Source: Tessaracoccus sp. MC1865 (GTDB lineage Bacteria; Actinomycetota; Actinomycetes; Propionibacteriales; Propionibacteriaceae). From it: DNA of 64,000 nt. The translations under genes were made by a program, and so were the position numbers. Below are positions 40,205 through 44,737 of this stretch, one piece after another. Each line of letters starts with the position of its first letter. Within the stretch, counting starts at the first letter, position 1. A model generated the notes under the pieces. It was not told the DNA's origin, did no database searches, and saw nothing but the letters and a program-made list of their open reading frames with translations. The DNA is taken from the NCBI RefSeq assembly GCF_017815535.1, contig NZ_CP072596.1, forward strand, positions 2,046,001-2,110,000, read 5' to 3'.

Positions 40205-42318
40205 ATGACTGCTCACCAGCATCACGGGCACCCCGCCCCCACTGCGCCAGAAGCGCGGGGTCACGACGATCACACGGATCATTCCGGCATGACCCACGGG
40301 GCGCCCCCCGAGAGCACCGGCCCCGAAGGCCACGGGGGCCGTGGCGGTCACGCCGGCCACGCAGCCCACTTCGGCCGTCTGTTCTGGATCATGCTCGCCC
40401 TGGGCGTCCCGGTCGTCGCGCTGTCGCCGATGTTCGCCCACCTGATCGGCTACGACCTCCCTGGCTGGGCCATCTGGGTGGCGGCGCTCCTCGGCACGGT
40501 GATGTACGTCTGGGGCGGTCAGCCGTTCCTGACGGGAGCCGTCAGCGAGATCAGGCTGCGGAAGCCCGGCATGATGCTGCTGATCGGGCTCGCCATCACC
40601 GTCGCATTTCTGGCCTCATGGAGCGCGACGCTGGGCATCCTCCACCACGAACTGGAGTTCTGGTGGGAACTGGCGCTGCTGATCGTCATCATGCTGCTCG
40701 GCCACTGGGTGGAGATGCGCTCGCTGGCGCAGACCACCTCAGCGCTCGATTCGCTCGCCGCACTGCTGCCGGACGAGGCCGAACGCGTCCTCGACGGCGG
40801 CGTGGAGAAGGTCTCCCCCTCTGCCCTGGCAACAGGCGACATCGTGATCGTGCGGCCCGGTGGCCAGGTGCCCGCCGACGGCAGGATCACCCAGGGCTCA
40901 GCGAGCATGGACGAGTCGATGATCACCGGCGAGTCCAAGCCAGTGGCCCGCAGCGAGGGCGACCAGGTCGTCGCAGGCACCATCGCCACAGACTCGGGCA
41001 TCCGCCTCCAGGTCACCGCTGTCGGCGACGACACCGCCCTCGCCGGCATCCAGAAGATGGTCCTCGACGCCCAGAACTCCTCGTCGAAGGCACAGCGGAT
41101 CGCGGACCGGGCGGCGGCCTGGCTGTTCTGGTTCGCCCTCGGTGCCGCCGTGATCACCGCCATCGCGTGGACCGTGCTCGGCGTGCCTGACCAGGCGATC
41201 GTCCGCACCATCACGGTGCTCGTGATCGCCTGCCCCACGCCCTGGGCCTGGCCATCCCGCTGGTGGTGTCGATCGCCACCGAGCGCGCCGCCAAGGCGGG
41301 CGTCCTGGTCAAGGACCGGCTCGCCCTTGAGGCGATGCGCACCGTCGACGCGGTCCTGTTCGACAAGACCGGCACGTTGACGGTGGGCGCCCCGGTTGTC
41401 GCGGCGGTGCACGCCGTCGGACGCTCCGACGACGAGGTCCTCGCCCTGGCCGCAGCCGCGGAGACCGACTCCGAACACCCCCTTGCCAAGGCGATCCTCC
41501 GGCGCGCGGCAGAGCGCGGCATTCAGGTGCAGCAGGCACATGACTTCTCGTCCTCCCCCGCCGTCGGCGTCAGCGCCCTGGTTGAGGGACGACGCGTCCA
41601 GGTGGGCGGCCCCCACCTCTTGTCCCAGGAGACCGCAACGGCACTTCCGGTCAGCGAGACCTGGGCGTCCTCGGGAGCCACCATCCTGCACGTGCTGGTC
41701 GACGGTGAGCCCATCGGTGCACTGCAGGTCGCCGATGAGATCCGCCCCGAGTCCCGGGCGGCCGTCGAGGCGCTCCGCCAGCGCGGGGTCACCGTCGTGA
41801 TGATCACCGGCGACGCCCGGGCGGTGGCGGAATCGGTGGCCGCAGACCTCGGCATCGAGCGGGTCTTCGCGGGGGTCCGCCCGGAGGACAAGGCAGGGAA
41901 GGTGCAGGAACTGCAGCGGGAGGGGCGGACGGTGGCGATGGTCGGCGACGGCGTCAACGACGCACCTGCCCTTGCCCAGGCCGACGTCGGCATCGCGATC
42001 GGCGCGGGCACCGACGTCGCGATCGGGTCCGCCGGCGTGATCCTCGCCGGAGACGACCCCCGGGCCGTCGTCTCCGTCATCGAGTTGTCGCGCGGCGCCT
42101 ACCGCAAGATGAAGCAGAACCTGTGGTGGGCGGCCGGGTACAACCTGGTGGCCGTACCGCTCGCCGCGGGCACGCTCGCCGCAGCGGGCGTCACCCTGCC
42201 GATGTCGGTGGGCGCCATCCTGATGTCCCTCTCGACGGTGGTGGTGGCCCTGAACGCGCAGCTGCTGCGCCGCCTGGACCTGGACCCCGCCTCCGTTACG
42301 CGCCGACAGCGCGCTTGA
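40205..42318 (+). pseudogene. copB: CopB-type copper P1B-ATPase, interrupted by one frameshift
   Basis: Read across one missing base, this is a 704-residue copper-exporting ATPase. The N terminus is His-rich and lacks CxxC domains. TGES, DKTGTLT and GDGVNDAPAL are present. The membrane motif would be CPHALGLAIPLVV, the C-P-H type of CopB pumps, but the run of four C at 41233-41236 lacks one C. The first frame stops at 41380; the correct frame resumes in the same codon region and continues to 42318. Either a real null mutation or a sequencing error. It is controlled by the CsoR-type palindrome upstream and overlaps the next gene by 23 bases. Confidence 0.85.
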
Positions 42319-42762: not shown

Positions 42763-43182
42763 CTATTTACGATTGATGACAACAGTTCCGAGCAACAGAT
42801 CTGTCATGGCACGCCGCTCGGCGCCGATCACGACCGCCGGGATGACGAGGCACTTCAGCGCGGTGCGCACGACGGCGCGCCACCAGCCGACGTGCCGGCC
42901 GTCGAGCCGCGCGATCCCGATCCGGGCGATGAGCTGACCGAACGAGCCACCGGTGAGCGCTGTGAGGATGCTCGCCTCCACGAAGTACACCGCCAGGATC
43001 ATGAACGACCTCCACCCGGTGCCCGTCATCACCTCGATGCCGAAGACCGCTATCGCCACCAGCATGCTGGCGGCCCAGTCGCCGATCATGGCGGCGATAC
43101 GCGCGCGCCACGACGCGAGCGAGCCACGGCCACGCTCGGGCAGACCGATGGTCTGGCCCGGATAGGTGGTGGTGTCAGTCAC
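42763..43182 (-). CDS. RDD family membrane protein
   Basis: 139 aa with three to four membrane helices. The RDD-type pattern is visible: R-x-x-A-x-x-x-D-W (RARIAAMIGDWAAS) at the first helix, and GGSFGQLIARIGIARLDGR between helices. The start is GTG 43182, selected by a TAGGCT box 7 bases upstream; the longer frame to 43257 is not used. Small RDD proteins are membrane proteins of mostly unknown function. Confidence 0.88.
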   Translation of the reverse strand: MTDTTTYPGQTIGLPERGRGSLASWRARIAAMIGDWAASMLVAIAVFGIEVMTGTGWRSFMILAVYFVEASILTALTGGSFGQLIARIGIARLDGRHVGWWRAVVRTALKCLVIPAVVIGAERRAMTDLLLGTVVINRK

Positions 43183-43189
43183 GCGGCGC

Positions 43190-43195
43190 AGCCTA
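43190..43195 (-). promoter_or_regulatory. -10 box of the RDD gene
   Basis: TAGGCT on the minus strand ends 7 bases before the GTG at 43182, leaderless start. Confidence 0.55.
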
Positions 43196-43254
43196 CCAGC
43201 GGCTCCCCTGCACGCCGTCGGTGAACAGGTTTCGCGGAGTCTTCGGGGACGTGC

Positions 43255-43260
43255 CATGAT
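43255..43260 (+). promoter_or_regulatory. -10 box of the leader peptide and symporter
   Basis: CATGAT ends 6 bases before the ATG of the 22-residue leader at 43267, so translation of the leader would begin at the mRNA 5' end. Confidence 0.45.
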
Positions 43261-43266
43261 CTGTCC

Positions 43267-43335
43267 ATGCTGATGCTCGTCGGTCGACTGTGGGTCGATC
43301 TCTGCCGCGTTCCTGCCGGCACCTGTCTGCGCTGA
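43267..43335 (+). CDS. 22-residue leader peptide with a VDLCRV-C motif
   Basis: A short frame, MLMLVGRLWVDLCRVPAGTC plus two residues, precedes the symporter gene by 49 bases. Its VDL-x-R-V and late Cys match the actinobacterial putative leader peptides (R-H-V-D-L-x-R-V-x-S-x-x-C) that I recall upstream of sulfur and cysteine genes. Two Cys codons (residues 13 and 20) fall in the conserved part. A possible stem pairs CCGCGT (43305-43310) with ACGCGG (43335-43340) near the stop. I infer cysteine-dependent translation or attenuation control of the gene behind it. Confidence 0.65.
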   Translation: MLMLVGRLWVDLCRVPAGTCLR

Positions 43336-43384
43336 CGCGGACCCCTCCCGACGTTCATCCCACCCCAGCTTTCAAGGAATCCTC

Positions 43385-44737
43385 ATGTCCACCATCATCG
43401 AGGCGCGCTCTGACGCGCCCACCCGCGAACCCCGCAAACCCTTCTACACCGGCCTCGGCTTCCAGATCGCCGCAGGCCTCGTCGTCGGCCTGATCCTGGG
43501 ATTCATCGCGCTCGGCATCGGTGCGCCCGCCGAGGGCGAGCGCAACTGGCTCACCGGCCTTCTCTACGAAGTGGGCTCGGCCTACGTCAAGCTCCTCATG
43601 CTGCTCGTCGTGCCGCTCGTGGTCACCGCCGTGATCTCCTCGATCGCCCGCCTGCAGCAGGTCAGGAACGCCGCCCGGCTCGCCGTCCAGACGCTCGTGT
43701 GGTTCGCCATCACCGCCCTGGCCAGCGTCATCGTCGGCATCGTCGTCGGCCTGCTGTCCAAGCCGTGGCTGACCGCCGGGGTCTCCGGCGACGCCGCCGA
43801 ACTCCCCAGCCGCCAGGGCGACTGGGCCGCGTTCCTGCTCGGTCTGGTACCCAGCAACATCTTCGGCCTCAGCGTCAGCGCCAGCACCACCGCAGAGGGC
43901 GCCGTGACCGCTTCCCCGAGCTTCTCGGTGCTGCAGATCCTCCTCATCTCGATCCTCTTCGGCATCGCCGCGGTCAAGGTGGGCGACAAGGCCGCGCCGT
44001 TCGTCGGCTTCATGGAGTCGGCGCTGTCCGTCATCCAGAAGGTCCTGTGGTGGATCATCCGCCTGGCCCCCATCGGCACCGCTGCCCTCGTCGGCCGCGC
44101 CGTCGCCACCTACGGCTGGACCTCGCTGGCGTCGCTCGGCTCCTTCGTTCTGGCCCTCTACGTGGGCCTGGCCGTGATCTGGGTGGTCGTGTACCCCGCC
44201 GTGCTGAAGTTCAACGGCCTCGACGTGGCGCAGTTCTACCGCAACGTGTGGCCCGCCATCTCGCTGGGCTTCGTGACCCGCTCCTCGATGGGCACCATGC
44301 CCGTCACCGAGCAGGTCGTCGAGCGCAACCTGGGCGTGCAGCGCCAGTACGCCAGCTTCGCCGTGCCGCTGGGCGCGACCACGAAGATGGACGGCTGCGC
44401 CGCGGTCTTCCCGGCCATCGCCGCGATCTTCATCGCCCAGTTCTACGGCATCGACCTGAACCTCACGCACTACCTGCTGATCGCGTTCGTCGCCGTCCTC
44501 GGCTCCTCGGCCACCGCCGGCACCACCGGCGCGACCGTCATGCTGACCCTCACGCTGTCCACGCTGGGCCTCCCGCTCGAGGGCGTCGGCCTGCTGCTCG
44601 CGGTTGAGCCCATCGTCGACATGGGCCGCACGGCCCTCAACGTCACCGGCCAGGCGCTGGTCGCGGCGGTCGTGGGCAAACGCGAAGGCGTGCTGGATCA
44701 GGAGATCTACGACGCGCGTCCGCAGTTCGCCGCCTGA
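43385..44737 (+). CDS. Dicarboxylate/amino acid:cation symporter (TcyP-like, probable cystine uptake)
   Basis: 450 aa DAACS (SLC1-type) symporter with eight membrane helices and two re-entrant loops. Visible are the FVTRSSMGTMP serine-rich loop, GATTKMDGCA (helix 7), SSATAGTTGATVMLTLTLSTLGLP (loop 2) and EPIVDMGRTALNVTGQAL (helix 8). The length and sequence style are closer to cystine symporters (TcyP) than to GltP. The upstream cysteine-type leader peptide supports cystine as substrate; this is inference. AAGGAA lies 5 bases before the ATG. Confidence 0.85.
   Translation: MSTIIEARSDAPTREPRKPFYTGLGFQIAAGLVVGLILGFIALGIGAPAEGERNWLTGLLYEVGSAYVKLLMLLVVPLVVTAVISSIARLQQVRNAARLAVQTLVWFAITALASVIVGIVVGLLSKPWLTAGVSGDAAELPSRQGDWAAFLLGLVPSNIFGLSVSASTTAEGAVTASPSFSVLQILLISILFGIAAVKVGDKAAPFVGFMESALSVIQKVLWWIIRLAPIGTAALVGRAVATYGWTSLASLGSFVLALYVGLAVIWVVVYPAVLKFNGLDVAQFYRNVWPAISLGFVTRSSMGTMPVTEQVVERNLGVQRQYASFAVPLGATTKMDGCAAVFPAIAAIFIAQFYGIDLNLTHYLLIAFVAVLGSSATAGTTGATVMLTLTLSTLGLPLEGVGLLLAVEPIVDMGRTALNVTGQALVAAVVGKREGVLDQEIYDARPQFAA

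Follow-up and report, generated by a model that had tools for sequence, protein, structure and literature searches.

Genetic organisation of the locus

The window, i.e. the whole stretch of 64,000 nucleotides of DNA that was analysed, belongs to a genome of 3.04 Mb that its relatives place in the Propionibacteriaceae. It contains a short open reading frame directly ahead of a symporter gene, and the features considered below are the following:

43255-43260, plus strand: putative -10 box CATGAT, ending six bases before the leader ATG, with its last T at -7
43267-43335, plus strand: leader open reading frame, 22 codons plus TGA, which reads MLMLVGRLWVDLCRVPAGTCLR
43294-43302, plus strand: codons GTC GAT CTC of the VDL motif; the peptide is kept, the codons drift synonymously
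43303-43305, plus strand: first Cys codon, TGC, without conservation (Cys here in 13 of 30 symporter leaders)
43324-43326, plus strand: presumed sensor codon, the Cys codon TGT nine residues past the Asp of VDL (position D+9), two codons ahead of the stop
43336-43373, plus strand: C-rich, G-poor spacer from the leader stop to the Shine-Dalgarno sequence; possible, weakly supported Rho-loading region
43374-43379, plus strand: Shine-Dalgarno sequence AAGGAA of the symporter gene, with a predicted mean unpaired probability of 0.80
43385-44737, plus strand: symporter of the SDF/DAACS type, 450 aa (PF00375, E 8.6e-99), a probable cyst(e)ine importer

The short frame, its VDLCRV motif and the later Cys were all recovered as an earlier, sequence-only reading of this DNA had described them, and so was the DAACS/SDF symporter, whose gene starts at 43385, 49 bases after the leader stop. 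The leader carries the core R-x2-V-D-L-x-R-x5-C (R7, V10, D11, L12, R14 and C20), a core that was read off the retrieved leaders and not off the NF042934 profile itself. Its only Cys residues, Cys13 and Cys20, are non-adjacent and there is no run of consecutive Cys codons; two isolated Cys codons are few for a classical attenuator, which would count against cysteine-responsive control. Elsewhere in the window an apparent heavy-metal P-type ATPase, judged by eye, occupies 40205-42318 and is split between two frames that overlap (40205-41380 with 41263-42318); it may be frameshifted or mis-sequenced.

The closest named relatives of the symporter (90% identity) are found in a Propionibacterium sp. 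and a Propionibacteriaceae MAG. For the earlier description of the protein as most like TcyP the comparison with the E. coli proteins gives a mixed picture. A one-residue insertion giving GCA is common to the window symporter and TcyP, and is absent from GltP, DctA and SstT as well as from this genome's second SDF protein. Identity is 30.7% to GltP and 29.1% to TcyP (DctA 26.8%, SstT 26.6%), and in the tree TcyP joins GltP/DctA, at 81% support, and not the window protein. Of 10 corynebacterial homologues, 3 are preceded by a palindrome (0-1 mismatches) that we take to be the motif of the sulfur regulator McbR, versus 0 of 114 control stretches. The GCA motif and this palindrome favour cyst(e)ine as the probable substrate. 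Also in favour is cg2810 of C. glutamicum, an SDF gene and possible orthologue, which is described as a member of the McbR and CysR sulfur regulons and proposed to encode a low-affinity cyst(e)ine transporter (PMC2580772). The corynebacterial loci with palindromes of the McbR type (L020, L022 and L031) had no VDL leader that we could find; perhaps another sulfur regulator is used there instead.

Conservation of the leader ahead of symporter genes

With the symporter protein alone as query, 66 places were recovered in 197 genomes of the family. The best 30 of these 66 (the one in the window, 27 more from its genus and 2 from another genus) are all preceded by an aligned short frame, the layout of which is kept even where VDL has become VDN, ADL or AEP. 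Because all these places were found without using the leader, its presence is far beyond chance; the sequence-only reading had named a missing frame in relatives as the result that would speak against it, and the frame was there in 30 of 30. Of the other 36 places, 7 have an adjacent match to the leader family NF042934 by coordinates and 29 do not, and inspection of 20 of those 29 gave a leader in 11 and no leader in 9.

A wider set of homologues was covered with named loci. The first pattern recovered a VDL frame upstream of 9 of 80 homologous symporter genes and none upstream of the remaining 71, a gap that, like the 9 leaderless places above, counts against the control proposed below; the 9 with a frame are all eight of L011-L018 (Propionibacterium, Propionibacteriaceae, Tessaracoccus and Arachnia) and an Actinomycetales MAG, L086. 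A wider look at 72 of the loci (L019-L090) gave short frames rich in Cys at 13 when the coding strand was read, versus 3 on the opposite strand, and among these 13 are two Georgenia loci with a DL-x7-C leader and L086 with the full form, each of which has TGT. Leaders also precede SDF genes outside the family (L133 and L216). The comparison of these loci supports the view that the frame in the window is a real, conserved leader peptide and that the pair of leader and symporter recurs in several genera.

The leader family and the genes it precedes

The curated family NF042934, 'putative leader peptide', aligns with residues 2-15 of the window leader at 24.9 bits (E 1.1e-5), slightly short of its 27-bit cut-off; relatives that lie before homologous symporter genes exceed the cut-off (L094 with 37.7 and L095 with 36.9 bits). 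The Ms5788A Cys-rich leader family, NF042933, matches the window leader weakly. When the genome was scanned with NF042934 the window leader scored 22.7 bits and no other place in this genome scored above 15.6 bits. The genome does have a nitrite/sulfite reductase (G000:C1:2373610-2374767), at which the sole NF042934 match falls within the gene, and, unlike in relatives, no leader was seen there in the scan. The family is present in 58 of 197 genomes of the bacterial family (E <= 0.01) and in 24 of 396 genomes of the phylum (E <= 1e-4); one genus, probably Streptomyces, has as many as 10 copies in a genome.

The genes downstream of 97 recognised leaders were clustered, and with Pfam run on one representative per cluster they comprise: 22 NIR_SIR, 11 PALP (3 of the 11 provisional, as their reads differ in length), 7 CDO_I, 7 SDF symporters (one being the same place as L163), 3 Sulf_transp, 2 TauE and 2 rhodanese. 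The PALP proteins are, judged from their motif, presumably of the cysteine-synthase kind. Beside the 7 cysteine dioxygenases there are five reads that look out of frame, at least one of them lying over a dioxygenase-like frame. Other downstream genes encode luciferase-like monooxygenases, a sulfatase, a DUF4395 protein and solute-binding proteins, and some of the proteins have no clear link to sulfur, e.g. a POR enzyme and an MFS transporter. A listing of the genes behind VDL leaders had been asked for as a check of the original proposal, and it includes genes for sulfite reductase and cysteine dioxygenase, for PLP enzymes and for the transport of sulfur compounds. On these domain assignments sulfur supply is the common theme of the genes behind the leaders, a theme into which the symporter would fit. 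Cysteine control appears well supported because the leader family precedes sulfur genes elsewhere.

A conserved position and a nearly invariant codon

The Cys at D+9 is encoded by UGU in 150 of 152 leaders, the exceptions being L145 and L200 with TGC. All 30 leaders of the symporter set have TGT there, and among distinct peptides, drawn solely from a 124-row subset of the leaders, it is UGU in 106 of 107. At the other Cys codons within the leaders UGU makes up 44 of 129 (binomial 2e-48 against D+9, with relatedness ignored), and in 43 downstream genes 1 of 84 Cys codons. Since the leaders are related to one another, p values make them look more independent than they are and serve here as a guide. 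The leaders had been found by protein profiles or by the symporter protein, searches that cannot select synonymous codons, and of the 10 leaders with a Cys at D+9 that were retrieved after the rule was noticed all 10 obey it.

The rule was derived from 170 loci (L092-L241 and L249-L268, where L120 and L163 are the same place and L152 is the window). Nine were dropped as having no leader frame by pattern (L249, L250, L252-L255, L257, L264 and L265, of which L254 is short) and nine as having a frame without Cys at D+9. In five of the latter a Cys codon lies close by, at D+10 as TGC in L118 and L226 and as TGT in L236, and at D+11 as TGT in L223 and L251; the other four (L217, L218, L219 and L229) have no Cys near D+9, or a Cys only earlier. 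Three of these four, L217, L218 and L219, have leader-like frames with IDL-x-R that are possibly decayed or differently tuned.

The strongly conserved residues of the leader are R-4, V-1, D, L, R+3 and C+9. The Arg at D-4 uses six codons, from which it follows that the frame is under peptide selection, and the conserved Asp (GAC 67, GAT 38) and Leu (four codons) are likewise free in their codons. With the codons of VDL and Arg drifting synonymously, VDL is kept as peptide and UGU is kept as codon. The codon counts indicate that two things are selected: the peptide R-x2-VDL-x-R and one in-frame codon nine after its Asp. UGU is followed by C or T in 118 of 123 leaders, and pyrimidines make up 97% of the first bases at D+10, versus 72% at D+11. 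A strict rule of a pyrimidine after UGU was considered and rejected, as 5 of the 123 break it.

Start site and spacer

The -10 box of a leaderless transcript, as put forward in the sequence-only reading, is a plausible candidate. The hexamer CATGAT is present, and the transcript could plausibly start at the A of the leader ATG; among the 30 symporter loci T occurs at -7 in 20 and C at -1 in 28. On the other hand, no sigma-70 consensus promoter was found. Purine-rich stretches precede the ATG in some relatives, e.g. L011 and L014, and could be ribosome sites instead. Upstream of the putative promoter, between the divergent genes, a stretch like GGcGAAC(n)TTT at 43216-43231 has similar counterparts, by eye, in several relatives and is a possible operator.

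The spacer in the window consists of 54% C and 17% G. Its C minus G is +0.316 on average in 29 symporter loci with a leader (L168 left out) versus +0.053 in homologues that belong to other families and have no leader (p 1.7e-10; 56 of the 72 loci L019-L090, with approximate starts). Within the family the 11 loci that have a leader give +0.21 and the 9 that lack one give +0.16 (p 0.65), and for want of a difference there the C-rich spacer has to be downgraded as a sign of Rho; the skew of C over G may be a mark of lineage. The region 43150-43500 contains 0 predicted intrinsic terminators. A search against Rfam gave no match better than E 0.9, and two matches near 44.7 kb were set aside as chance-level.

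A proposed mechanism and its alternatives

We propose, with a probability of roughly 0.58, that the leader is a cis-acting, cysteine-responsive peptide that controls the symporter gene. The mRNA would begin at or near the AUG of the leader, where translation would be immediate. The sensor would be the UGU at D+9, reached while the VDL stretch occupies the exit tunnel, a stretch that may add to the pause. The tRNA-Cys(GCA) decodes UGU by wobble pairing. If Cys-tRNA is plentiful, the ribosome would pass UGU, stop and leave, and the free spacer, having no terminator, would let Rho load and end the transcript early. If Cys-tRNA is scarce, the ribosome would wait at UGU, with two codons to go to the stop, and would shield the spacer, and expression of the symporter would rise. 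A pause at UGU, possibly aided by the nascent chain, would need just the combination of peptide selection and in-frame codon selection that was recovered above. As to the output step, transcription control via Rho, which a 2005 comparative study of related cys leaders gave as one possibility (PMC1262725), is to be taken as a tentative proposal, held at less than even odds.

The cysteine-responsive reading may be extended, likewise at less than even odds, to the VDL leaders as a class, which would then be single-codon cysteine sensors: R-x2-VDL-x-R would lie in the tunnel when the ribosome meets an obligatory wobble UGU, and one codon, and not a run, would report either the charging of Cys-tRNA or a sulfur-dependent tRNA modification, in the Propionibacteriaceae and in genomes that seem to be of the Streptomyces and mycobacterial type. 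To our knowledge bacteria have one Cys isoacceptor, so that the isoacceptor-charging theory alone cannot explain the choice of UGU.

The best surviving alternative, which we consider unlikely at this locus, is translation attenuation, in which an RNA structure would hide the Shine-Dalgarno sequence of the symporter until it is opened by a ribosome that stalls at the Cys codon; it differs from our proposal in the output step only, and the sensor is identical. It has a precedent in M. smegmatis, as given in papers citing that work, and the leader with the next 30 nt has a slightly more stable fold than shuffled sequences have (mean z -0.80 over the 30 symporter loci). Its predicted consequence was not seen, however: over 32 sequences (the 29 symporter loci other than L168, omitted for its unclear start, plus L094, L095 and L120, the last a duplicate of L163) the unpaired probability of the Shine-Dalgarno sequence was 0.467 without a ribosome and 0.456 with one at D+9 (p 0.14), and in the window it was 0.80 either way, values that are thermodynamic predictions and not those of co-transcriptional folding. 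A stop-region hairpin of the window fold was rejected, with a mean z of -0.30 over the 30 loci.

Neither a terminator in the window region nor a hairpin in the stop region that is conserved over the 30 loci was found, so that hairpins of the classical attenuator kind were not recovered here. The stem that had been proposed to overlap the leader stop, CCGCGT/ACGCGG, exists, but it is at chance level and not conserved: at least one perfect 6-bp stem occurs in 65% of shuffles of leader plus spacer, against 2 such stems in the actual sequence, and in 7 inspected relatives the longest complement at its position is 3-5 bp. Of the overall interpretation given in the sequence-only reading, the stem has therefore to be given up, and what is retained is a conserved actinobacterial leader that is tied to sulfur and cysteine genes and has a selected Cys codon.

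UGU might also be kept for a reason that lies in the RNA or DNA sequence, as a binding or cleavage site S-UGU-Y, and not for slow decoding. The pyrimidine preference behind UGU, stronger at D+10 than at D+11, would agree with such a site. We nevertheless find it rather improbable, as the position is frame-locked to VDL by a constant number of residues and is a Cys codon, and the flanking codons vary. Less probable still is that the main role of the leader is to deliver ribosomes to the symporter by reinitiation, with slow reading of UGU tuning this delivery. Reinitiation at leader peptides has reportedly been treated in a published paper, and the distance of 49 bases between stop and start in the window is short. 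The spacers of the symporter set, however, range from 36 to 111 bases, and delivery would leave the invariant UGU and VDL unexplained. That the leader acts in trans as a small protein, which its strongly conserved R-4, V-1, D, L, R+3 and C+9 would allow, is hardly credible, since selection on a peptide cannot fix a synonymous codon, the ends of the peptide vary and related leaders precede many different genes.

Comparison with known cysteine leaders

If the cysteine-responsive reading is true, a synonymous change of UGU to UGC should alter regulation with the peptide unchanged. The reading would also give concrete meaning to a family curated at NCBI under the bare name 'putative leader peptide', and would extend cysteine attenuation from the polycysteine leaders of mycobacteria to leaders with one or two Cys that gate the import of a nutrient. 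Searches of an open-access library found neither the UGU rule nor the link to the symporter, and priority is uncertain to the extent that the 2020 study mentioned below is known via the papers that cite it.

The family NF042934, annotated as cis_reg_atten, resembles the window leader in its VDL/R core and in being a short frame ahead of a gene, and its description mentions neither the amino acid that is sensed nor any rule on codons. Attenuation by leaderless short frames with polycysteine was reported in 2020 for M. smegmatis by Canestrari et al. (as cited in PMC9031893, PMC13236596 and PMC9094748). As they are described in those citing papers, the mycobacterial polycysteine attenuators (the Ms5788A family, NF042933) are, like the leader studied here, short Cys-containing frames ahead of sulfur genes; the window leader differs from them in having no Cys run and no predicted unmasking of the Shine-Dalgarno sequence, and in its target, a symporter. 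The polycysteine leaders retrieved in the present work (L122-L125, L127, L130, L131 and L142) have the core VDLCR or VELCR and, inside the Cys run, UGU at D+9; a ninth leader of this kind, L145, is the exception and has UGC at that place.

Cysteine attenuation by short leaders was predicted earlier, in 2005 (Seliverstov et al., PMC1262725), and proposed again in 2015 (PMC4633059). The candidate Cys leaders that the 2005 study gives for Mycobacterium, P. acnes and B. longum cbs share with the window a Cys near the stop, the absence of a terminator and a pyrimidine-rich spacer, and differ from it in their runs of Cys codons, where the window leader has two isolated Cys. The study itself calls its polyY evidence rather weak, and the evidence from the window spacer is weak in the same way. 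The leader uORFC-8-2, upstream of cysS in the Rhodobacterales (PMC8632094), is likewise an attenuator formed by an upstream frame with Cys codons; it is reported with tandem Cys codons, a dominance of UGC and an intrinsic terminator, unlike the window leader. The window leader would work like the leaders predicted in 2005, proposed in 2015 and reported in 2020, but without their run of Cys codons.
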